Shown here one piece after another: positions 1-32,873 of a stretch of DNA of 32,873 bases (positions within the stretch are counted from its first letter, which is position 1; the number at the start of each line of letters is the position of its first letter). The notes beneath the pieces were generated by a model. The model searched no databases. It was given only the letters and a program-made list of their open reading frames with translations, and was not told the origin of the DNA. Where the stretch lies: positions 1 through 32,873 of the IMG/VR virus record IMGVR_UViG_3300035187_003732, one strand, 5' to 3'. The position numbers and the translations under genes are program-made. Source of the stretch: a virus.

Positions 1-10
1 GTGGCGTAGT
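1..10. repeat. 10-base terminal direct repeat, left end
   Basis: GTGGCGTAGT, identical to 32864-32873. Joined ends would put the small terminase gene about 100 bases after the last iteron-region hairpins. Confidence 0.6.
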
Positions 11-53: not shown

Positions 54-656
54 ATGTCGCCCCGACCCTTTGACCCTCGCTGCACCGAGGCGGCCGCTCG
101 CGAGTGGCTGCTCGCTCACCCCGCCGATCCGGCAGGCGCGTGCATCGCTGGACTGGCCCCGGACCTCCAAGGCGGCGAGCGGCGGCGGGCGCACGATGCG
201 ATCGCGCGCTGGCGGCGGATGATGGTGGCTGAGGGCCTCGTCAAGCCGCTACCGTCGGGCCGCCAGCGGAGCGTGATGCCGCCCTCGCAGCCGCCGCCGC
301 CCGATGCAATCGAGCGGGACCTGTTGGCCCTGTCGCCGGCCGAGTCGATCGCGTGGACGATCAGGCGGCTGCGCCGGACGCTCGACGAGGCCGACCCTGG
401 TTCGGCCGCCTACGTCACGGCCGCGGGCCAGATGCAGAAGTGTCTCGACCGGTACCACGAGCTGCGCCGCGCCGAGGAGAAGCCCGCGCCCGGGCCGGCG
501 GACCTGTCCCCGGCCGAGTGGCGCGAGCAGCTCGGAGCGTCGGCCCGCGAGCTGGTCGACGTCGACCTTGAGGTCTACGTCGCCGAGTGGCTCGGGCGGA
601 AGCGGCTGCGGCTGGTGGCCCGGTCGGATGGGACGCTGGTGCTGGAGCGTTCGTGA
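54..656 (+). CDS. Putative terminase small subunit
   Basis: Protein of 200 residues, first gene of the late region, overlapping the large terminase by four bases (GTGA). It would recognise the packaging site on phage DNA and hand it to the large subunit. The N-terminal ~70 residues are basic and helical, rich in Arg and Trp, as expected of a DNA-binding head. The middle (about 95-145) is a helix-forming segment that could oligomerise, and the C-terminus is acidic then mixed. I chose the ATG at 54 over the one at 30 because GGAGG lies at 41-45, 8 bases upstream of 54. No motif proves the function; the call rests on position directly before an unmistakable large terminase, size and composition. 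Confidence 0.6.
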   Translation: MSPRPFDPRCTEAAAREWLLAHPADPAGACIAGLAPDLQGGERRRAHDAIARWRRMMVAEGLVKPLPSGRQRSVMPPSQPPPPDAIERDLLALSPAESIAWTIRRLRRTLDEADPGSAAYVTAAGQMQKCLDRYHELRRAEEKPAPGPADLSPAEWREQLGASARELVDVDLEVYVAEWLGRKRLRLVARSDGTLVLERS

Positions 657-2056
657 TCGACGCCTCAGCCATTGCCGCCCGGGCCGCGGTCCACGGCCGC
701 GCGCCCGCGCACTGGACGAGGCCGCAGCTCGACCTGTTCGACAGCCCCTATCGGCTCACGGTCTGGTGGGGGGCGAACGGCATCGGCAAGTCGGTGGCCT
801 TGGCCGAGGTCACGCGCCGGGCGTTGGGCGGGCTCCTGCCGTGGCAGACCAGCCGGAAGCGGACGGTCATGCTGGTGGGGAACACTTACAAACAGCTCGG
901 CGTGACGCTGGAGTACCTGTTCTCGATGGTCCCGCCGAGCTGGTTCGGGCCGCGCATCCGCTTCAACTCGGGCATGGTGAGGGGCCAGCGGATGCCGGTC
1001 TACGACGTGGTCGGCGGGCCGGGCGCTGGCTCGACGCTGGTCCTCGGTGTGTTCGACGCCGAGAACTTGGCCGGGCCGCGCGCCGAGGTCGTCGTCAGTG
1101 ACGAGCCCCTGCCCGAGCCCGTCCACAACGAGCTGTGGCCCCGTCTGCTCGGGCGCGGGGGCCGGATGTACGTCGGCTTCACCCCGACCCTCGGCACCGC
1201 GGCGGACGTGCAGTACCTCTGGAAGCTCGTCGACGACCCGGCCCTGCCGCATGTCGGCGAGCTGCACACCCCTCTCACCTTGGACGCGGTCACCCCGCGT
1301 GGGGGCCTCGTCGACCTCCCCTGGCTGACCGCGCGCGACATCGCCGAGCACGAGGCCGGGCTGTCGGCGCTGGAGGCGGACATGCGGATGGGCCGCAGCC
1401 GGACCCCTCGGCGCGAGACGGCCTACTTCTCGTCGTGGGGCCCGCACTTGGTCCGCGACGAGGCCCCGCCTGTGGGCGCGGTCGTCGGCGTCGGCATCGA
1501 CCACGGCCCGAAGCCCGGGACCCAGCGGGCGATCCTCGTCGCGTCTGCGCGCCGCGGGCTGCACGCGCACCTCTGGGTCTTGGACGAGTACGCGTCCACG
1601 GACCGGACGACCCCGCGGGGCGCGGCCCGGGGCGTGTTGGACATGTTGGCCCGGTCTGGCCTGGAGCCCGGCGACGTCGACCGGTGGATCGGCGACCGGG
1701 CGCACCACGGCGACCATCGAGGCGGCGCGATGAGCAACCGGGCCTTCTTGGAGGCGATGGCCTCCGAGCTGGGCATCCCGACCGAGCGCCGGGGCTGGAC
1801 CGAGCAGCTACCCGAGGGACTGCGCCGCATCGCGACCCCGCGCAAGTACGAAGGCTCGGTCTGGGAGGGCTCTCTGATGCTGCACCGGCTGATGGTGGAC
1901 GACCCGCCGCGGCTGACGGTGTCGCCGCGCTGCTCGCTCCTGCACGCGGACCTCGCCGGGTGGCAGGGCTCGACGTCGCCCTCGGACCCGCACAAGCACG
2001 GGCTGGATGGGCTGAGGTACATCGCGGTCCCGTTGCTTGAGGGCCGCGCTCGGTGA
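653..2056 (+). CDS. Terminase large subunit (packaging ATPase and nuclease)
   Basis: Protein of 467 residues that powers DNA translocation into the prohead and cuts the concatemer. The ATPase half has a Walker A loop GANGIGKS (Lys46) and a Walker B strand VVVSDE (Asp150, Glu151). The RNase H-like nuclease half shows three acidic positions in the expected order: GVGIDHG (Asp283), IGDRAHHG (Asp348) and HGLDGLRY (Asp452). An ATG at 587 lies in the same frame, but the GTG at 653 overlaps the small subunit stop (GTGA) and has GGAG eight or so bases upstream, so I start there. Length is typical for the family. Confidence 0.9.
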   Translation: MIDASAIAARAAVHGRAPAHWTRPQLDLFDSPYRLTVWWGANGIGKSVALAEVTRRALGGLLPWQTSRKRTVMLVGNTYKQLGVTLEYLFSMVPPSWFGPRIRFNSGMVRGQRMPVYDVVGGPGAGSTLVLGVFDAENLAGPRAEVVVSDEPLPEPVHNELWPRLLGRGGRMYVGFTPTLGTAADVQYLWKLVDDPALPHVGELHTPLTLDAVTPRGGLVDLPWLTARDIAEHEAGLSALEADMRMGRSRTPRRETAYFSSWGPHLVRDEAPPVGAVVGVGIDHGPKPGTQRAILVASARRGLHAHLWVLDEYASTDRTTPRGAARGVLDMLARSGLEPGDVDRWIGDRAHHGDHRGGAMSNRAFLEAMASELGIPTERRGWTEQLPEGLRRIATPRKYEGSVWEGSLMLHRLMVDDPPRLTVSPRCSLLHADLAGWQGSTSPSDPHKHGLDGLRYIAVPLLEGRAR

Positions 2057-7819: not shown

Positions 7820-8308
7820 GTGGCCACGTCCCTCGCGTCCCTCGTCTCCATCCGCTCGCTTGCCGAGCTGACCCCCGACTCCCCTCAGACCGGCGCTGTG
7901 AAGGGCGAGATCTCGGTCGACACTCGGACGGCCAACGGCATCGGCTCCGGGCAGGCCGATCGGGCCTACTTTGCTGAGCGTTCGCTGTCCTCGGGCGCGA
8001 CTCACACCTACAACGTGCTGGCAGCCGGCTCGCTGACCGACATGCTCGGGCAGGCGATCGATCTTGACGAGGTCAAGGCCATCACGGTGCAGTGCCTCAC
8101 GGGCGCGATCAAGGTCGAGGGTGGCGCGGCGAACGTGCTGGCGGCCTTCACCGGGGCTAACGAGGGCCTGAACCTCGGCGCCGGGCAGAGCTTCGCGCTG
8201 GACCTTGGCCCGGCCGGTGTGTCGGTCGGCAGCAACGGCACCTTCGTCGTGACCGAGACGGCCGCGAGCACCGCGTCCTACCGCATCCTCATCGTCGGCG
8301 CGCAGTGA
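7820..8308 (+). CDS. Beta-rich virion protein of unknown role
   Basis: Protein of 162 residues starting at GTG 7820 with AGGAG just upstream. After a Ser/Leu-rich N-terminus it is almost entirely predicted strand and turn. The pattern LDEVKAITVQCLTGAIKVEGGAANVLAAF (about 74-102) resembles small beta-sandwich phage proteins that encode a Lys-Ala-Ile strand followed by a Gly-Gly-Ala turn. Position between tail terminator and tail tube candidates suggests a tail or neck component. Confidence 0.6.
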   Translation: MATSLASLVSIRSLAELTPDSPQTGAVKGEISVDTRTANGIGSGQADRAYFAERSLSSGATHTYNVLAAGSLTDMLGQAIDLDEVKAITVQCLTGAIKVEGGAANVLAAFTGANEGLNLGAGQSFALDLGPAGVSVGSNGTFVVTETAASTASYRILIVGAQ

Positions 8309-8315
8309 GGTCCGC

Positions 8316-8795
8316 ATGTCCCTGATCCCCTCCTCATTCAGCGACGGGCAGCTCGTCATCACCGACGACGCGGGTCACTCCGCGACCCTCCAGCTCTCGC
8401 AGGGCGATACCTCGGTGTCGGGCCTGATCCCTGGCGGCCGCACGGTCACCGAGGTGCAGTCCCGCGGCGCGTTCGTCGGGCTGCGGCTCGGGCAGCGCGT
8501 GGCCCCGACGATCACGATCAACGCCGTGCTGTCGTCGCCGACCGATGCCTTCTATCGGCTCGCGATGGGTACCACGAGCGGCTTCGTCTCGACGTCTGCC
8601 GACATCGGGGACGCCCGCACGGTCGATGGCACCTTCAGCTTCAACTACGGCGCCGAGAGCCGCAGCATCACCTTCGACGACGCCTACCTCCAGGCCTTCG
8701 ACGTGAGCGAGGGCGACCCGTCCACGGTTAGCCTCACGCTCGCGATCGTGGGCCCGGTGGAGCTTGACGGCGTGACGCTGATCGCTCAACGCTGA
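8316..8795 (+). CDS. Putative major tail tube protein
   Basis: Protein of 159 residues, beta-rich with one central helix. It begins with strands typical of tube proteins (GQLVITDDAGHSATLQLSQG) and has SRGAFVGLRLGQRVAPTITINAVL (about 49-72) like the inner-sheet strands that stack into the tube. A helix-turn PTDAFYRLAMGT follows, and closing strands end in VSLTLAIVGPVELDGVTLIAQ. It lies directly before the tail assembly chaperone pair, the standard place of the tube gene in siphoviruses. No specific motif proves it. Confidence 0.6.
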   Translation: MSLIPSSFSDGQLVITDDAGHSATLQLSQGDTSVSGLIPGGRTVTEVQSRGAFVGLRLGQRVAPTITINAVLSSPTDAFYRLAMGTTSGFVSTSADIGDARTVDGTFSFNYGAESRSITFDDAYLQAFDVSEGDPSTVSLTLAIVGPVELDGVTLIAQR

Positions 8796-16921: not shown

Positions 16922-17236
16922 ATGGCCGATCTGAACCTGGCGGGCGTCGCTGCCCCGTGGACCTGCTCTTTCGTCCCCGGCGCTTCCGGCCGGCTGACCG
17001 TCGACCCGGTCCTCCACGGCGAGATCCACGTCTGGATCCCGAGCGGCATTACGATGGAGTACGGCGTGGCGGCCTCTGACCCGGGCGCCGCGGTGCTGCC
17101 GCTGCCCTCCGAGCAGTACGTCCGCGTCTGGGAGGCCCCGTCTGGCCTCTCGGCGCCCCTGTCGCGGTGCGAGCTGACGTTCGAGGAGTCGGGCGGCACC
17201 TCGGGCATCGTCTACGTTCGCGTGGTCGCCCGATGA
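16922..17236 (+). CDS. Small beta-rich tail protein
   Basis: Protein of 104 residues with CGGAGG just before the ATG. It is almost all strand (SGRLTVDPVLHGEIHVWIPS; then VRVWEAP; then CELTFEESGGTSGIVYVRVV) and has two Cys residues (15 and about 87). The size and all-beta character suggest a small carbohydrate-binding-like or connector domain between the tail tip and the following fibre candidate. I do not recognise the family. Its stop overlaps the next start (ATGA). Confidence 0.6.
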   Translation: MADLNLAGVAAPWTCSFVPGASGRLTVDPVLHGEIHVWIPSGITMEYGVAASDPGAAVLPLPSEQYVRVWEAPSGLSAPLSRCELTFEESGGTSGIVYVRVVAR

Positions 17237-18312
17237 AGCCCCGCCCGTCCAGTCTCTACTCGATGGGCGCGGCCGCGGGTGGCGGCGGTGGGAGCGGTCC
17301 TGACCTGACGGCGCCGATCCCGCCTGTACCGGTGTCGCTCGCGTCGGGCTCGACGTCGCTCGGGTCGACCTCGATCGGGTCGTGGTCGGCCTCTGTGACC
17401 GTCACGGCGACCGTCACGGCCTCCAGCGGGTCACCCCCGACGGCGACCGTCACCGGCTCCGGGGCGGGTCCCTACAGCGTGTCCATCGCGTCCGGCCTGG
17501 CCGATGGGGTGACCTACGCCGTCACTCTGACGGGCACCGGGGCGGATGGCCAGGTGGCGCGGGTCGGGCTCTCTGTGGCCGTCGGCACGGCTGTCCCTGC
17601 CCCGGCTTGGAACACGCTCGTAGAGTACGACCTCACGACCGTGGACACGGCGACGGCGGTCACGGCGACCGGCGGCGACGTGGCCCTTACCGTGGGCGGC
17701 GCGGCGTTCCTGACGCTCAAAACCATCTTCGGCTCCGGGACTGGCAGCCTGACCCCAACCAACGGCTCCGGCGTCATCTTCTCCGGGTCGGCGGGCGGCA
17801 TCCGGGCGGCGTTCGTGAACATCGACTGGGCCACGCTCGGCGCGGTCCTGGACACGGAAACACTGGCAATCCTGATCGAATTTGGCTTCACGAGCATCAT
17901 CTCAGGCGGCACCATCCTCGCCACTGCTGCGACGGTGAACGCCAACGTCAACGCAAACCACAACTTCGGCGGGCGATGGTCGCTCAGCGGAACCACCTAC
18001 GCAATCGCCCCAAGGTATTACAACTCCGCCGCTACCATCGGAACGGCGGTATCGTCGGGAACCACGGCCTTTTCGGGCAACTACTCGGCGGCGATGGTTG
18101 TCGGCCCCGGCGGACAGACGACATACATGCACGCCGGGGCGCTCCCAACGGACCCGTCGGGCTTCGGGCTTGGTCCGCGCAGGTACTCGCAGCCCGTCAG
18201 TACATGGACTTCGGGCAGCCTGACCTACCCGGCCGGGCCGCCCAAACCGGCGTTCTGGGTCGAAGATGCCGTCTGTGTCTGGCGCAAAATCCGCATCATG
18301 CGTTGGAGTTAG
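17233..18312 (+). CDS. Candidate receptor-binding or tail fibre protein
   Basis: Protein of 359 residues with a poly-Gly run (about 16-21) and a Ser/Thr/Gly-rich Ig-like N-terminal section (about 40-120) resembling fibronectin-type or Ig-like repeats in tail fibres. A distinct C-terminal region (about 130-359) has the strand-rich, Trp- and Tyr-containing look of a lectin-like beta-sandwich. Base use changes sharply inside the gene: from about 17820 to 18310 the G+C falls and A/T-ending codons (gaa, aaa, tat, tta) appear that are rare elsewhere. A swapped-in C-terminal domain is consistent with a host-range determinant at the end of the tail module. Confidence 0.5.
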   Translation: MKPRPSSLYSMGAAAGGGGGSGPDLTAPIPPVPVSLASGSTSLGSTSIGSWSASVTVTATVTASSGSPPTATVTGSGAGPYSVSIASGLADGVTYAVTLTGTGADGQVARVGLSVAVGTAVPAPAWNTLVEYDLTTVDTATAVTATGGDVALTVGGAAFLTLKTIFGSGTGSLTPTNGSGVIFSGSAGGIRAAFVNIDWATLGAVLDTETLAILIEFGFTSIISGGTILATAATVNANVNANHNFGGRWSLSGTTYAIAPRYYNSAATIGTAVSSGTTAFSGNYSAAMVVGPGGQTTYMHAGALPTDPSGFGLGPRRYSQPVSTWTSGSLTYPAGPPKPAFWVEDAVCVWRKIRIMRWS

Positions 18313-26596: not shown

Positions 26597-26631
26597 ACTT
26601 TACAACCGCATGACAAGGCCCCGGGGTAAGT

Positions 26632-26646
26632 GTTTGCCATGCAAAC
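26632..26646. promoter_or_regulatory. Operator-like site 3: perfect palindrome centred on the regulator start
   Basis: GTTTGCCATGCAAAC has perfect arms GTTTGC and GCAAAC around CAT; the ATG start of the regulator lies inside it (26639-26641). A protein bound here would block transcription of, or entry to, the regulator gene, consistent with autoregulation. Confidence 0.5.
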
Positions 26647-26920
26647 GCACCTCTCTCGCGCTCTGGTCGACCTTCGGGGCAATCGCTCACAACGCGAGAT
26701 CGCCGACATGATCGGCATCTCACGCGTGACGCTTGCGAACATCGAGCTGGGCCGCACGCGCCCTTCGCTGCGGCTCTGGGCCGCGCTGCGGGCCGCGCTC
26801 GACGTGCCGCCTGAGCTGGCAGCCGAGCTTGAGGCGCACTGGACTTCTGCGGGGCCCGCATCGGCGGGGACATCGGCTGCTCCGTCCGCCGATGCGGGGC
26901 CTCGTCTGGAGGACCGGTGA
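26639..26920 (+). CDS. XRE-family transcriptional regulator
   Basis: Protein of 93 residues with a Cro/CI-type helix-turn-helix at about 14-55: RSQREIADMIGISRVTLANIELGRTRPSL is the classic scaffold (Gln-x-Glu-x-Ala at helix 2, Ser-x-x-Thr-x-x-x-x-Glu-x-Gly-x-x-x-Pro-Ser at helix 3). The C-terminal ~30 residues are Ala/Ser-rich and look unstructured, with no dimerisation or LexA-like protease domain. I start at ATG 26639; an upstream GTG (26630) is possible. No strong ribosome binding site is seen, so leaderless or weak translation is possible. It is the only recognisable switch gene and stands divergent from the recombination operon. Confidence 0.8.
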   Translation: MQTHLSRALVDLRGNRSQREIADMIGISRVTLANIELGRTRPSLRLWAALRAALDVPPELAAELEAHWTSAGPASAGTSAAPSADAGPRLEDR

Positions 26921-27619: not shown

Positions 27620-28191
27620 GCCGCGACGCATCGGACCGCTACTACACCCCCCACGCCCTCGCCCTGGCGCTCTGCCGCATCGTCGACGAGCACCTCGACG
27701 ACGCGCCGCGCAACATCCTTGAGCCCTGCGCCGGGGGCGGCGCGATCACGCGGGCCGCCCGAGAGGTCTGGCCCCGCGCCGGGGTCAAGGAGAACGACCC
27801 GGACCCCGCGGCCGGCCTGCTGTCCGTCCTGACCCTTGCCGACCTCGCCACCGGCATCGAGGGTTGGTACGACGCGATCATCACGAACCCGCCGTTCAGC
27901 GGGTACAAGCAGCACATCGCCGACCTGCGCCGCATCCAGCACCGGACGGGCGCGCACATCCTCGCCGTGATCCTCCGTGAGACGGCGGTCGCGCACCTCC
28001 TTGAGCCCGACCCGCCCCACTACTCCTACCGCACCCCGATCCGGCCGCGGTGGGAGGGCCCGGACGGCGTCCATAACCGGGCCTCGGATACCGTCGGGAC
28101 CGAGATCCTCGTGTGGCGGTACGGCGACAATGGGCTCGGCGAGACCATCATGCGCCGCCTGCCGGACTGGCGGCCGAGGGGGCGCCGATGA
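27616..28191 (+). CDS. Adenine-N6 DNA methyltransferase-like protein
   Basis: Protein of 191 residues with SAM-binding motif I ILEPCAGGGAITRA (about 34-47), motif II-like KENDPDP (about 59-65) and catalytic motif IV TNPPFSGY (Asn91-Phe94). The N-terminus YYTPHALALALCRIV is typical of phage DNA adenine methyltransferases that start with a Tyr-Thr-Pro segment. No target-recognition domain and no linked restriction enzyme are visible, so an orphan phage methylase that protects against host restriction or marks the genome is likely. Confidence 0.7.
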   Translation: MSRDASDRYYTPHALALALCRIVDEHLDDAPRNILEPCAGGGAITRAAREVWPRAGVKENDPDPAAGLLSVLTLADLATGIEGWYDAIITNPPFSGYKQHIADLRRIQHRTGAHILAVILRETAVAHLLEPDPPHYSYRTPIRPRWEGPDGVHNRASDTVGTEILVWRYGDNGLGETIMRRLPDWRPRGRR

Positions 28192-29975
28192 TCCCCCTCG
28201 CCCCCGGCCAGCGTCCTCGCGCTTGGCAGCTCTCCGCGACCGACGCGGCCCGCGCCGCGTTCCGGCAGGGCCTCCAGGCCGTGATCGTCTCCGCGGCGAC
28301 GGGCACGGGCAAGGGCACACTGCTCGCGGCCTGGGCGCGCTTGGCTGCCGCCCGAGGCCCTGTCCTTGTCCTCGTTCATCGCGAGGAGCTGGTGATCGAC
28401 CTTTACGAGCGCATCAAGGCCATCCCGGGGCCGCACTCGGTCGGCGTGGTCTGGGCCGCCAGGAACGAGATCCTCGCCGACATCGTCGTCGCGTCGGTGC
28501 AGTCCCTGCGCGGCCGGCTTGCTCAACTCCGGGGCCCGCACCTCGTCATCACTGACGAGTGCCATCACGCGCCGGCGCCTACCTACCGGGCGATCTACGA
28601 GCGCGTGGCCGAGCTGGTCCCAAAGTGGAAGCACCTCGGCATGACCGCGACCCCGTTTCGGTCGGCCGAGGGCGGCTCGACAACCGGCCTGGGCGACGTC
28701 TTTCAGGCCGTGGTCTACGAGCACGGGATCGGAGACGCGATCGCGGCGGGCGACCTCGTCCCTGTCCGCGGGATCCGCGTCGAGACCCAGCTCGACATCT
28801 CCGAGTGCCGCGTCGGCAAGTCTGGCGACTACGTCGAGGACGACCTCGCGCGCTTGGTCGACGTCGAGGCGCGCAACTCGCTGATCGTCGACTACTACGA
28901 GCGCGAGGGGGGCGCCCGTCCGGCCCTGGTCTTCGCTGCCAGTGTCGAGCACGCGCAGCACCTGGCCGAGACCTTCCAGCGGCGGGGCCATGACTTCGCC
29001 GCGGTCTGGGGCGACATGCCGCGCGCCGACCGGAAGCGCATCGTCGGCGACTACCTCGCGGGGCGCACCTTGGGCCTCGTCTCGCGCGATCTGCTGTTCG
29101 AGGGCTTCGACGCGCCGCGGGCCTCGATCTTGCTCAAGGCCCGGCCGACCAAGTCCCGCGTCGTCTTCGTGCAGATGGTCGGACGGGGGCTGCGCTTGTA
29201 CCCCGGCAAGTCCGAGGCGCTCCTGCTCGACTTCGTCGACAACGGCTGCGACCTCGACCTGTCCTCGATCGCCGACCTCTCGCCGACTGCTGCGACGGCC
29301 GACAAGGCCGCGCGGACCTTCGTCGAGGGCGACCTCGTCGAGCACCGGACCCAGCCTTTCGGGCAGGGCATCGTCGAGGCCGTCGTCGAGGGCCCGCTTT
29401 ACTGGGTGATGTGGTACGAGTCCGGGGACCGGGCCTTGCACGGCCCTGGCGATCTCATGCGGCCGCGCGCGGCCCGGCCCGAGGATAACGTCGACCGGGA
29501 CGGCCTGCGGATCGCGCGCGTCGCCGATTACGAGGTGCTCCTGCTGCCCGGATCCAAGGTGCGGGACGCAGCCGGCTGGTACCACTACTCGGACGTCTGG
29601 ACGGTCGGCGCCCGCGGCGAGGACGGGGCGCAGGCGACGGGCCTCGTCCGCCAGACCGGGCCCGACTGGTCGGCGTGGCTCGTCCGCCGTGGCGACGCCG
29701 AGCAGCTCGGACGCGCACCGACCCGCGAGGCCGCCTGCCTCGCGACCGAGACTGCGCTGCGCGCCCGTGGGCTGCGCTTCGGGCGGGTCGACGCCGAATG
29801 GAAGTCGCAGGCCGCTACCGAGCGTCAGATCGCCGCCCTCCGCGCGTGGCGCATCCGCCGCGACCTCGACACGATCTCCAAGGGAGAGGCGAGCGCCCTC
29901 CTCGACGCGGTGGCGGCCCGGCGGACCGTCGCAGCGGCCATCCGAGACCTGTCCGCCCGTAGAGCAGCCGAATGA
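28188..29975 (+). CDS. SF2 DNA helicase
   Basis: Protein of 595 residues with the superfamily 2 motifs: Walker A TGTGKGT (Lys42), DECH (123-126), the motif III sequence MTATPF (152-157) and motif VI QMVGRGLR (Gln329, Arg333, Arg336). The C-terminal ~230 residues include a Trp-rich beta part (about 390-480) and a final ATERQIAALRAWRIRRDLD (about 544-562), a helical accessory region seen in phage helicases. It would unwind DNA or remodel junctions during replication or recombination. It sits between the methylase and the Prim-Pol gene with 4-base overlaps on both sides. Confidence 0.8.
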   Translation: MIPLAPGQRPRAWQLSATDAARAAFRQGLQAVIVSAATGTGKGTLLAAWARLAAARGPVLVLVHREELVIDLYERIKAIPGPHSVGVVWAARNEILADIVVASVQSLRGRLAQLRGPHLVITDECHHAPAPTYRAIYERVAELVPKWKHLGMTATPFRSAEGGSTTGLGDVFQAVVYEHGIGDAIAAGDLVPVRGIRVETQLDISECRVGKSGDYVEDDLARLVDVEARNSLIVDYYEREGGARPALVFAASVEHAQHLAETFQRRGHDFAAVWGDMPRADRKRIVGDYLAGRTLGLVSRDLLFEGFDAPRASILLKARPTKSRVVFVQMVGRGLRLYPGKSEALLLDFVDNGCDLDLSSIADLSPTAATADKAARTFVEGDLVEHRTQPFGQGIVEAVVEGPLYWVMWYESGDRALHGPGDLMRPRAARPEDNVDRDGLRIARVADYEVLLLPGSKVRDAAGWYHYSDVWTVGARGEDGAQATGLVRQTGPDWSAWLVRRGDAEQLGRAPTREAACLATETALRARGLRFGRVDAEWKSQAATERQIAALRAWRIRRDLDTISKGEASALLDAVAARRTVAAAIRDLSARRAAE

Positions 29976-32488
29976 TGCCGAACCCTCTCCATCGGGCCGC
30001 CCGGCAGTATGCCGATCGCGGCTGGTCCGTCCTGCCCCTGCACTCGTTATCGCTGGACGGGTCCTGCACCTGCTCTCGCGGCGCCGACTGCCCGAGCCCG
30101 GGCAAGCACCCTCGCCTTGAAGACGGCGTCAAGGGCGCCAGCCGTGACCCGGTCGTGATCGACGGGTGGTGGGAGCGATGGCCCGACGCGCACCTCGGCG
30201 TGGCCACTGGCGCGCCTTCGGGCGTCTGGGTCCTCGACGTGGACACGGGCGACGACGTCGACGGCGCCGCCGACCTCGCGCGTCTGGAGGCTGCGCACGG
30301 GGCCCTGTCCGCGCTGCGGGCTCGGACCGGATCGGGCGGGCAGCACTTGTTCTTTGCGATGGACGATCGCGCCACCGAGCTGCGGAACCGGGCGCGGCTC
30401 AAGATCGGCGGGGCGAAGACCGGCCTCGATGTGCGGGCGACCGGCGGGTACGTCGTCGCAGCGCCTTCGGGCCACGTCTCCGGGGGCCGCTACGAGTGGA
30501 TCCAGCGCCAGGCGCCCGAGCCCGCGCCCGGCTGGCTGCTCGATCTCCTGCTCGCGCCCGCGCCGGTCTCGCCGCCCTCTCTGCCTCTCCTTCCCTCGGC
30601 CCCGTCGGACGACCGGCAGGCGAAGTACCTCGCGCGGGTTCTGTCCGATCAGGCCGAGCGCATCCTGTCGGCGCCGGTCGGCGGGCGGCATCCGGCGATC
30701 GTCGCGGCCGCGCACAAGGTCGGGATGTACCTGCACCACTGGCCGACATTCGAGCAGGATGCCGTCGTGCTCGCGCTGATCGACGCTGCCTGCGCGGCTG
30801 GCAAGGACCGGGCCGACGCCGAGCGCGCGGTGCGGCAGATGGTCGCGGTCGGGCAGGGGCATCCAAAGAGCATCGACTGGAAGGCGCCGCCCTCTCGCGA
30901 CGACGACGACGCGCCGCTGCCAGAGGAGCCCCCGCCGTTCGAGCAGGAGGCCCCGCGGCGCCCTCGCATCCTCGTCACCGGTCGACAGCTCCGGGAGGTC
31001 GTCGCGGACGCGTGGCGCGCCCTGGACCGGGCCAACCGACCCACCCCGCGGCTTTACCGGCGCGGCGGTGCCCTCGTCGAGGTCCACCAGACCGAGCAGG
31101 GCCCGCGGATCGTCTCGGTCACGGCGAACGCTCTGCTCGGGCACCTCGCGGGGGCCGCGGACTGGATCAAGACCAGGCGGGCGCACGCTGGCGAGGCCAC
31201 GGCGAGCCCGTTCGTCGAGGTCGACGCCGACCGTCCGCCGCAGGCCGTGGTCGACGTGCTGCTCAGCCAGCCCGACGAGCGCCTGCCCGTGCTGGAGGGC
31301 CTCGTCGCGGGCCCAGTCGTCGACGCGCAGGGCCGGATCGTCGATCGGCCCGGCTACTCCGACTCGGCCCGGGTGCTCTACGTCGGGGCGCCCCTCCAAC
31401 TTGTCGAGGGGCCCGCGCCCGAAGCGGCCCGGCTCCTGCTCGATCACTGGCTCGGCGACTTCCCGTGGGCCAGCGACTCGGATCGGGCTCATGCCCTCGC
31501 TCTGGTGCTGACCCCGTTCCTGCGGCGGCTCATCGCCGGGCCCTGCCCCGGGTTCTTGATCGAGGCCCCGACGCCGGGCTCGGGTAAGTCCCTGCTCGCC
31601 GAGCTGGCTGGGACCGTCGCCCTCGGCGCGGCGCCGCCCCCAACGCCGTTTGCTCGGCAAGAGGAGGAGCGGCGGAAGGCGCTCCTCTCGGCCCTGTCCT
31701 CGGGCCGGCCGATGATCCTGCTCGACAACGTGTCAGGGGCGGTTGCCGACTCCACGCTTGAAGGCATCCTCACAGCCTACCCCGCGTGGACTGACCGTGA
31801 CTTGGGCCGCATCGCCGAGCTGACCGTGCCGGCCCTGTCAGTCTTCGCCCTCACGTCAAACAACGCGACCCTGTCGACCGACATGGCCCGGCGGGTCTGC
31901 CGCATCCGCCTGAACCCGGCCACCGATCGGCCCGGGGAGCGCAGCGGGTTCAGGATGCCCGATATTCGCGCGTGGACGCGCGAGCACCGGGGGCTGCTGG
32001 TGTCGGCCGCCCTGAGCATCATCCGCGCTTGGATGGCCGCAGGGAGGCCCTACGACGGGTCCCGGCTGGGCTCCTTCGAGCGGTTCTCCGAGGTCGTGGG
32101 TGGGTGCCTACAGGTGGCGCAGGTCCCGGGGTTCCTGGGCGACCGGGACGCGCTCTTTCGCGAGTCCGATCGGGAGGGCAGCGAGTGGGCTGAGCTGGTC
32201 GGCCTGTGGTGGACGCGATGCCAGGGGCAGAACGTGTCCTCGGGCGAACTGTTGACCATCGCCGACGACGCCGGTCTGCTGACCTGGGCGACCGGGGACG
32301 GCAGCGACAAGGCCCGGGCGACGAGGCTCGGGCTCGGGCTTCGGAGGATGCGCGACCGAGTCTGGACGCTGCCGGGTGTCGGGCGGGTCACCCTGACCGG
32401 GCCTCATCTCTCGGCGGGTCGCTCGCAGTACCGGCTCCTTGCGCTCGACCTCCAACGGTCCGGGCAGGTGGTGCCGCTCCATGTCTGA
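29972..32488 (+). CDS. Prim-Pol / ATPase fusion replication protein
   Basis: Protein of 838 residues, the largest replication protein here. The N-terminal ~200 residues are a primase-polymerase domain: CTCSRGADCPSPGKHPR zinc-binding-like segment (about 30-46), WVLDVDTG (Asp89, Asp91), TGSGGQHLFFA (about 119-129). A linker (about 300-340) leads to a helicase-type ATPase with Walker A PTPGSGKS (533-540) and Walker B ILLDN (Asp585). Such proteins prime and unwind at an origin in plasmids and phages. Downstream lies the repeat array at 32497-32767, a plausible origin. Start ATG 29972 overlaps the helicase stop (ATGA). Confidence 0.8.
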   Translation: MMPNPLHRAARQYADRGWSVLPLHSLSLDGSCTCSRGADCPSPGKHPRLEDGVKGASRDPVVIDGWWERWPDAHLGVATGAPSGVWVLDVDTGDDVDGAADLARLEAAHGALSALRARTGSGGQHLFFAMDDRATELRNRARLKIGGAKTGLDVRATGGYVVAAPSGHVSGGRYEWIQRQAPEPAPGWLLDLLLAPAPVSPPSLPLLPSAPSDDRQAKYLARVLSDQAERILSAPVGGRHPAIVAAAHKVGMYLHHWPTFEQDAVVLALIDAACAAGKDRADAERAVRQMVAVGQGHPKSIDWKAPPSRDDDDAPLPEEPPPFEQEAPRRPRILVTGRQLREVVADAWRALDRANRPTPRLYRRGGALVEVHQTEQGPRIVSVTANALLGHLAGAADWIKTRRAHAGEATASPFVEVDADRPPQAVVDVLLSQPDERLPVLEGLVAGPVVDAQGRIVDRPGYSDSARVLYVGAPLQLVEGPAPEAARLLLDHWLGDFPWASDSDRAHALALVLTPFLRRLIAGPCPGFLIEAPTPGSGKSLLAELAGTVALGAAPPPTPFARQEEERRKALLSALSSGRPMILLDNVSGAVADSTLEGILTAYPAWTDRDLGRIAELTVPALSVFALTSNNATLSTDMARRVCRIRLNPATDRPGERSGFRMPDIRAWTREHRGLLVSAALSIIRAWMAAGRPYDGSRLGSFERFSEVVGGCLQVAQVPGFLGDRDALFRESDREGSEWAELVGLWWTRCQGQNVSSGELLTIADDAGLLTWATGDGSDKARATRLGLGLRRMRDRVWTLPGVGRVTLTGPHLSAGRSQYRLLALDLQRSGQVVPLHV

Positions 32489-32496
32489 CGCGCGCG

Positions 32497-32767
32497 TGGT
32501 GGACGTGGTGGACGTTGGTGGACGTCTAAAACACACGTCCACCAGACCATTCATCCAGCATCAAACGGTCGTTTCGTCGGCTTGGTGGACGTGGTGGACG
32601 TGCGCCTATCTTTATATGTGTGTGCGTAGTTCTGACACTCCTTCCCATCTACCTCTAAAAACGTCCACCAACGTCCACCAACGTCCTATGAACGTTGGCC
32701 CTGTCAGTGTTCTCGACGAGGCCCAACGTCCACCAGATGCCCGGGCAACGTCCACCAACGTCCACCA
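32497..32767. repeat. Array of eleven 10-base repeats (TGGTGGACGT), candidate replication origin
   Basis: Perfect copies on the + strand start at 32497, 32506, 32516, 32583 and 32592; inverted copies (ACGTCCACCA) start at 32535, 32661, 32671, 32726, 32748 and 32758. Some copies share one base (9-base period), others abut at 10 bases. A degenerate copy follows at 32681. Between 32602 and 32660 is the most AT-rich stretch (TATCTTTATATG and CTCTAAAAA). The layout, next to the Prim-Pol gene, is that of iterons flanking an unwinding element. The region is 385 bases without a credible gene. Confidence 0.55.
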
Positions 32768-32783
32768 GTGCGGCGGGCGTAGC

Positions 32784-32799
32784 GTCTACCTGCGTAGAC
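32784..32799. other. Hairpin in the terminal non-coding region
   Basis: GTCTAC (32784-32789) and GTAGAC (32794-32799) with a 4-base loop CTGC. A second hairpin follows: CCCCT (32801-32805) with AGGGG (32812-32816). Either could be a terminator or part of a packaging signal. Confidence 0.4.
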
Positions 32800-32834
32800 A
32801 CCCCTACCGGCAGGGGCCGGGCATGATGACCCCT

Positions 32835-32858
32835 CCCCCCCGGGGGGCGGGGTACCCC
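32835..32858. other. G/C-tract palindromes near the sequence end, candidate cos region
   Basis: CCCCCC (32835-32840) and GGGGGG (32842-32847) flank a single C, followed by the perfect palindrome GGGGTACCCC (32849-32858). They lie just before the 10-base terminal repeat and the small terminase gene, where cos or pac sites are usually found. Confidence 0.35.
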
Positions 32859-32863
32859 CCGAG

Positions 32864-32873
32864 GTGGCGTAGT
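32864..32873. repeat. 10-base terminal direct repeat, right end
   Basis: GTGGCGTAGT here is identical to bases 1-10. It could be a cohesive-end sequence counted twice, or an assembly overlap of a circular sequence. Confidence 0.6.

Follow-up and report, generated by a model that had tools for sequence, protein, structure and literature searches.

What is the function of eleven identical 10-base repeats packed directly behind a replication gene? The question is raised by the right end of a viral DNA stretch of 32,873 nucleotides (IMG/VR virus record IMGVR_UViG_3300035187_003732, positions 1 to 32,873; the whole stretch is called here the window), in which the repeats follow a gene encoding an 838-residue Prim-Pol/ATPase protein. 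In our reading, held with a probability of about 0.84 on comparison of sequences, the array is a theta-type replication origin that would be read by the C-terminal domain (CTD) of the adjacent protein, called here the initiator. This reading draws on the array itself, on a layout that is conserved in a near relative with a changed word, on the divergence of CTD and array within a single block, on the same layout across a family of homologues and on the covariation of the repeated word with the CTD.

Eleven exact repeats lie directly 3' of the initiator gene

The initiator gene (29972-32488, plus strand) encodes, as judged from Pfam and a structure model, a Prim-Pol domain (residues 10-188; Pfam 2.3e-41), a linker, an SF3/D5-like AAA+ ATPase and the CTD (residues 742-838; 32195-32485, plus strand), the proposed reader of the repeats. 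The first of 11 exact copies of TGGTGGACGT begins 8 bases past its stop codon; all copies lie in 32497-32767 and none elsewhere in the window, against a chance expectation of 0.06 copies and a maximum of 1 in 100 dinucleotide shuffles. These repeats (iterons) are arranged as three on the plus strand (32497-32525; starts at 32497, 32506 and 32516), one on the minus strand (32535-32544) and two on the plus strand (32583-32601; starts at 32583 and 32592), followed past an AT-rich block by two (32661-32680; starts at 32661 and 32671), one (32726-32735) and two (32748-32767; starts at 32748 and 32758) on the minus strand. All five plus copies and one minus copy precede the AT-rich stretch, and five of the six minus copies follow it.

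An earlier note on this DNA had described eleven perfect repeats in both orientations, mostly five one way before and six the other way after an AT-rich segment, in a 385-base non-coding region. The count and the arrangement are borne out. The AT-rich segment is indeed present between the copies but is modest, with a peak of 65% AT per 20 bases (32609-32628) in a genome of 72% GC, and the 385 bases hold from the Prim-Pol gene to the record end, beyond which the intergenic region continues, as judged from the relative described below.

If the array is an origin, the CTD, which is probably a winged helix, would bind the 10-base words on both flanks of the AT-rich block CTATCTTTATATGTGTGTG (32606-32624), the proposed unwinding element; the SF3/D5-like AAA+ ATPase would form rings at the array and open this AT-rich DNA; and, after circularisation of the genome, the Prim-Pol domain would prime synthesis. 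We infer the binding, the ring assembly, the melting at 32606-32624, the priming and the circularisation, as well as the direction of replication.

The model of ATPase plus CTD (predicted local distance difference test, pLDDT, 82) matches D5/SF3-type primase-helicases at modest TM-scores; its Foldseek matches include AsfvPrimPol, NrS-1 PrimPol, PriRep1, SaPI5 Rep and poxvirus E5, with E-values of 7.6e-8 to 2.0e-5 among the 50 matches listed (SaPI5 Rep structure 7ola: E 1.7e-5, TM 0.41/0.45). Searches of PDB sequences with the window protein gave no useful match, and none to SaPI Rep. The CTD model (pLDDT 77) has a predicted helix-helix-helix-strand-strand-strand order. The CTD alone matched nothing among phages by tblastn, and the P4 origin-binding domain was not among the Foldseek or VIA matches listed for the CTD, which is not evidence of absence.

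Iteron word and CTD have diverged together in a near relative

The viral contig IMGVR_UViG_3300036770_006092 (called here G001) encodes an initiator 95% identical to that of the window, and more than 95% identity is found in 21 of the 25 proteins compared. The G001 array has the same order and orientation of sites (3+, 1-, 2+, 2-, 1-, 2-), with 10 of the 11 sites intact. All 10 intact sites read CGGTGGACCT, a word absent from the window, and TGGTGGACGT is absent from the three G001 pieces. The fifth site is degenerate: its closest copy, AAGTGGACCT, has 2 mismatches and lies 19 bases before the sixth site rather than 9-10. The earlier note had proposed a search of related genomes for conserved repeats; what G001 conserves is the layout of the array, and the word itself is changed.

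The protein has changed in the corresponding place. Window and G001 initiators differ at 38 of 838 residues, 26 of which fall in the last 97 (residues 742-838). In 100-base bins, DNA identity ranges from 85 to 99% over 28001-32200 (42 bins) and from 58 to 81% over 32201-32800 (six bins). The diverged block (32195-32783) spans the CTD and the array; within it, the AT-rich block CTATCTTTATATGTGTGTG is identical in G001. Synonymous divergence (dS) reaches 1.04 in the CTD, with a nonsynonymous divergence (dN) of 0.19, compared with dS/dN of 0.13/0.026 for residues 1-200 and 0.22/0.015 for residues 201-741. Given this contrast in dS, an exchange of CTD and array as one cassette is more probable than change through point mutations only. 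No CTD difference falls in the second loop or in the turn preceding the wing; affected are the putative recognition helix (4 of 15 residues), the wing (6 of 22), helices 1 and 2, the first loop and the tail. The pair amounts to a natural experiment, in which the word and the last 97 initiator residues differ and the site layout is nearly the same.

Arrays follow the ATPase gene across a family of homologues

A family of 59 members, including the window and G001, was assembled from 6 of the 21 matching records of a plasmid collection, the archaeal virus L075, 44 genome-contig loci and 6 viral loci. An array was scored as the most repeated 7-mer in up to 700 bases beginning 60 bases before the stop codon, and 868 overlapping control windows were taken from the same loci plus L073, L074 and L077. 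A 7-mer with at least 6 copies was found 3' of the ATPase gene in 54 of the 59 members, and one with at least 5 copies in 58, compared with 15 (1.7%) and 87 (10%) of the 868 control windows, respectively. All six fetched plasmid records, out of 21 with a matching ATPase, carry arrays, as does the archaeal virus. The 44 genome-contig and 6 viral loci were found from protein only, with an alignment query that was itself built from array-bearing plasmids, and 45 of these 50 reach at least 6 copies. The 45 include all six further viral contigs with a plasmid-type ATPase, two of which barely pass (L122 and L127, with 6 copies against control maxima of 5). It should be noted that the 59 members are not all independent, since the sequence downstream of the gene in L072 is the same as in L091.

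Homologues from plasmids, chromosomal loci and further viral contigs show the same layout of gene and array. The words differ from member to member (GCAGGGA, CGGGTAG, AAACCCGG, AAACCCGC, AACCCCG, AACACCGC, GTGGGAAC and others), and the CTD can be aligned across family members. Structure alignments were made on the window and 42 loci, none of them from the plasmid collection (alignment A4), and on 39 of these 43 rows after removal of L094, L101, L102 and L112 (A5).

To relate word and domain, a Mantel test was run on 51 of 53 members, after dropping L110 (no word at 5 copies) and L113 (reading frame ending before the CTD); L122-L127 were found later and lie outside this set. Distances between CTDs and between iterons are correlated (r = 0.67 over the 51 members). 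The partial correlation of iteron with CTD given the ATPase is 0.486, a value reached by 0 of 2000 permutations, and that of iteron with ATPase given the CTD is -0.09 (p = 0.86); shared descent of the members makes these p values no more than indicative. Where CTDs are near-identical, the word is mostly the same as well. The pair L068/L069 seems to differ by the automatic choice of word, but both contain GTGGGAAC; the word used for L068 was CGGTTAC, tied at 6 copies with GTGGGAA, so that this pairing looks worse than it is. These 51 initiator/iteron pairs make a DNA-recognition code of the CTD directly testable.

Repeats were also seen in other places. In L099 and L100, a single 7-mer reaches 8 and 10 copies, respectively, in control windows away from the main array, which may mark a second repeat region. 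Several unrelated viral contigs have arrays with the core GGTGGAC (4-12 copies in 450 bases). In L035, L045 and L046 (L046/L053) these sit at the 3' end of AAA_25-type initiator genes, in L050 inside a predicted open reading frame, and in L033 after a terminase gene, with the same gene in L049 (group L033/L049/L062).

The array lies beside a probable cos and a probable small-terminase gene

The same 10 bases, GTGGCGTAGT, stand at both ends of the window (1-10 and 32864-32873). Among 11 relatives of its large terminase subunit (TerL) in viral contigs, G001 included, eight (L015-L018, L020-L022 and L024) start exactly with GTGGCGTAGTC at the contig end. The G001 record has a 127-base terminal repeat, and its sequence continues through the point where the window ends into a probable small-terminase gene. 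The shared ends, the contig starts of the relatives and the continuity in G001 together suggest that the record ends of the window are a physical end, probably a cos, which may have a 10-base overhang. In the joined form, as read from the sequence, the array is flanked by the initiator gene on one side and by the probable cos, with the probable small-terminase gene behind it, on the other.

The gene at 54-656 (plus strand) is assigned to the probable small terminase subunit (TerS) by its position before a weak TerL match; it has no family match, and the window TerL had no tblastn match in 50,697 phage records. Of the 200 TerS residues, 31 are different between window and G001, and 29 of these lie within residues 6-68. 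In the window and the 10 relatives whose sequence extends to TerS, the N-terminal region (window 54-280) comes in at least three types on a nearly constant C-terminal part, two defined by protein alignment and the third (L018-L022) by tblastn and DNA identity only. In L024, about 1 kb extra relative to the window (657-1660 of that contig) lies between TerS and TerL.

The earlier note had named a packaging-protein binding site as an alternative, and this neighbourhood gives it some substance. The repeats would then be cosB-like sites bound by TerS, separated from the probable cos by about 110 bases. The array adjoins both the probable cos and TerS, and the differences in TerS are concentrated in the expected place of its DNA-binding domain. 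Furthermore, the two phages have the same 90-base block ending in the probable cos (32784-32873), outside the diverged block, which means that any type-specific site for TerS has to be located elsewhere. On the other side, the start of the TerS gene is diverged, too, and could hold such a site, the iteron word goes with the initiator CTD, and plasmids have the same type of array behind their ATPase gene. Of these plasmids, four of five whole records (pWTY27 and pCM32 included) have no match to phrog_2 or PF03354 in a search that is insensitive, since phrog_2 missed the window's own TerL. Indeed, phrog_2 matched in 3 of 8 records and missed both window and G001, despite the weak TerL match of the window elsewhere. 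The fifth plasmid, NZ_CP108372.1 (L070, Streptomyces, 34 kb), has a large-terminase match (phrog_2, 2.2e-13) and could therefore be a phage-plasmid whose origin is of this kind; this one case in five raises the packaging reading slightly and lowers the origin reading slightly. Overall, packaging is weakened by the plasmid arrays and the covariation of CTD and word and keeps the TerS difference in its favour; we regard it as improbable.

In the same 8 records, no ParA (PF13614) was found, and integrase (PF00589) was found in 4, window and G001 not among them. Elsewhere in the comparison with G001, the window protein encoded at 17167-18312 aligns over 225 of 381 residues at 62% identity, its neighbours in the set being at 97% and 92%; it is possibly a variable tail part.

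Folding, regulation and points against an origin

A further possibility is that the inverted copies fold into a long stem-loop and that the initiator recognises this structure instead of the individual 10-base words. As single-stranded DNA, 32489-32782 has a fold score far below that of shuffled sequences (z -6.8), the origin that lies 3' of orf904 in pRN1 is a stem-loop without conserved sequence (PMC4234260), and a folded IR2 was suggested by the pWTY27 authors (PMC3583192). The fold score, however, follows from the presence of one word in both orientations, the identity of the word tracks the CTD, and several arrays are too lopsided to pair in this way (7:1 in L089, 6:1 in L090, 5:1 in L106 and 6:1 in L108). 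Such stem-loop recognition seems to us as unlikely as the packaging role. An RNA element is unsupported, an Rfam search of 32000-32873 giving no match. The regulator array also raised by the earlier note, through which a repressor or activator would control the terminase/late operon, is very improbable: the array does lie upstream of TerS and an HTH_3 protein is encoded at 26630-26920, but this protein is 96.9% identical in G001 despite the changed iteron word, and 32300-32873 holds no promoter and no terminator in a search limited to the sigma-70-like promoter type.

Several results weigh against reading the array as an origin. Five of the 59 family members (L096, L110, L115, L117 and L121) stay below 6 copies. 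Among 125 annotated phage records with an ATPase match, four were fetched; the archaeal virus L075 has the array and is counted in the family, and the other three, outside the 59, have none, with top counts of 3, 4 and 3 in L073, L074 and L077 (L073 and L077 are 149-kb roseophages, L074 is the 58-kb phiAsp2). GC skew, proposed as a check in the earlier note, shows no clear minimum near the array (1-kb steps, 1-32000) and gave no usable origin signal, being confounded by the mostly plus-strand genes. The CTD model has no Foldseek match at E<=0.001 and only weak fold matches by VIA, the best at Z 5.8; the VIA matches include what we take to be many winged helices, all at Z 5.8 or less, and on these grounds the winged-helix fold is likely, not proven. 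The N-terminal region of TerS diverges between window and G001 together with the CTD and the array. Finally, G001 is the single close relative found to have both gene and array; the earlier note had pointed to relatives keeping the Prim-Pol gene without the repeats as contrary evidence, and there is none among close relatives (n = 1).

Searches with the Prim-Pol, the cos and the right end returned G001 only, and thus no relative in which CTD type and TerS type are decoupled; an initial scan of genome contigs gave no relative. The helicase search returned G001 and four distant relatives (L129-L132), which share the helicase at 42% and have no Prim-Pol match in the fetched stretch (tblastn, E<=1e-3). 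One of them, L132, has an 11-copy CGCCAGC array at 7978-8500, just past the helicase and within overlapping open reading frames that gave no family matches.

The joint divergence of these elements allows a bolder proposal, which we put forward tentatively and consider rather doubtful as a whole. The stretch from the CTD through the iterons to the N-terminal region of TerS may be a single identity cassette that surrounds an unchanged cos and is swapped as a unit to reset replication and packaging specificity together, and CTD and iteron word may form a readable recognition code across the family. If this were true, a swap of the cassette would free phages of this group from co-infecting relatives or satellites.

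Comparison with known systems

Origins of this kind are already known from pWTY27, SaPI and P4-like elements, and modular swaps from PLEs. What the window adds is a plasmid-type initiator/iteron origin, if we read it correctly, placed in a probably cos-ended phage. Among the matches listed in a literature search on Prim-Pol and iteron origins in phages, no title concerned this phage group.

The closest parallel is the Streptomyces theta plasmid pWTY27, for which the report (PMC3583192) describes a minimal locus of repAB plus iteron and shows that RepA gel-shifts and footprints on an array of GTGGGAAC in both orientations. RepA is homologous to the ATPase and CTD of the window protein (tblastn 6e-41, 32% identity over residues 359-765), and its 8-base words lie, as in the window, in both orientations directly 3' of the RepA gene. 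By contrast, pWTY27 is a plasmid, its word is GTGGGAAC where the window has TGGTGGACGT, and RepB (Prim-Pol) and RepA are separate genes that are fused in the window. Together with the joint divergence of CTD and array and the layouts of the homologues, the binding reported for RepA favours the plasmid-like iteron origin beside a Prim-Pol/ATPase gene that the earlier note had put forward.

SaPI Rep and SCCmec Cch2 use their C-terminal domains to bind iterons located immediately 3' of their genes, and SaPI5 Rep is, like the window protein, a primase-helicase (PMC7581432). SaPI is nevertheless a satellite island and not a phage, its iteron is another, and its Rep has no sequence match to the window protein in the PDB searches. 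A further source (PMC4234260) places the pRN1 origin, a stem-loop, 3' of the Prim-Pol-helicase gene (ORF904) and has P4 alpha binding origin repeats via a winged helix. Both proteins join primase, SF3 helicase and a C-terminal winged helix, as the window initiator probably does; unlike the window, the pRN1 origin has no iterons and the P4 alpha primase is of bacterial type. Mycobacterial extrachromosomal prophages are reported to have RepA-like or RNA-based origins.

The PLE replicons of Vibrio cholerae offer the parallel for exchange. In the study of these replicons (PMC8263062), the DNA-binding domain of the initiator and the origin covary and are exchanged, module swaps being inferred there; the initiator is of the RepA_N family and the origin has three semi-palindromic repeats of about 30 bp, unlike the window. 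Origin exchange in this phage group is testable as an escape from incompatibility or parasitism of the kind reported for PLEs.
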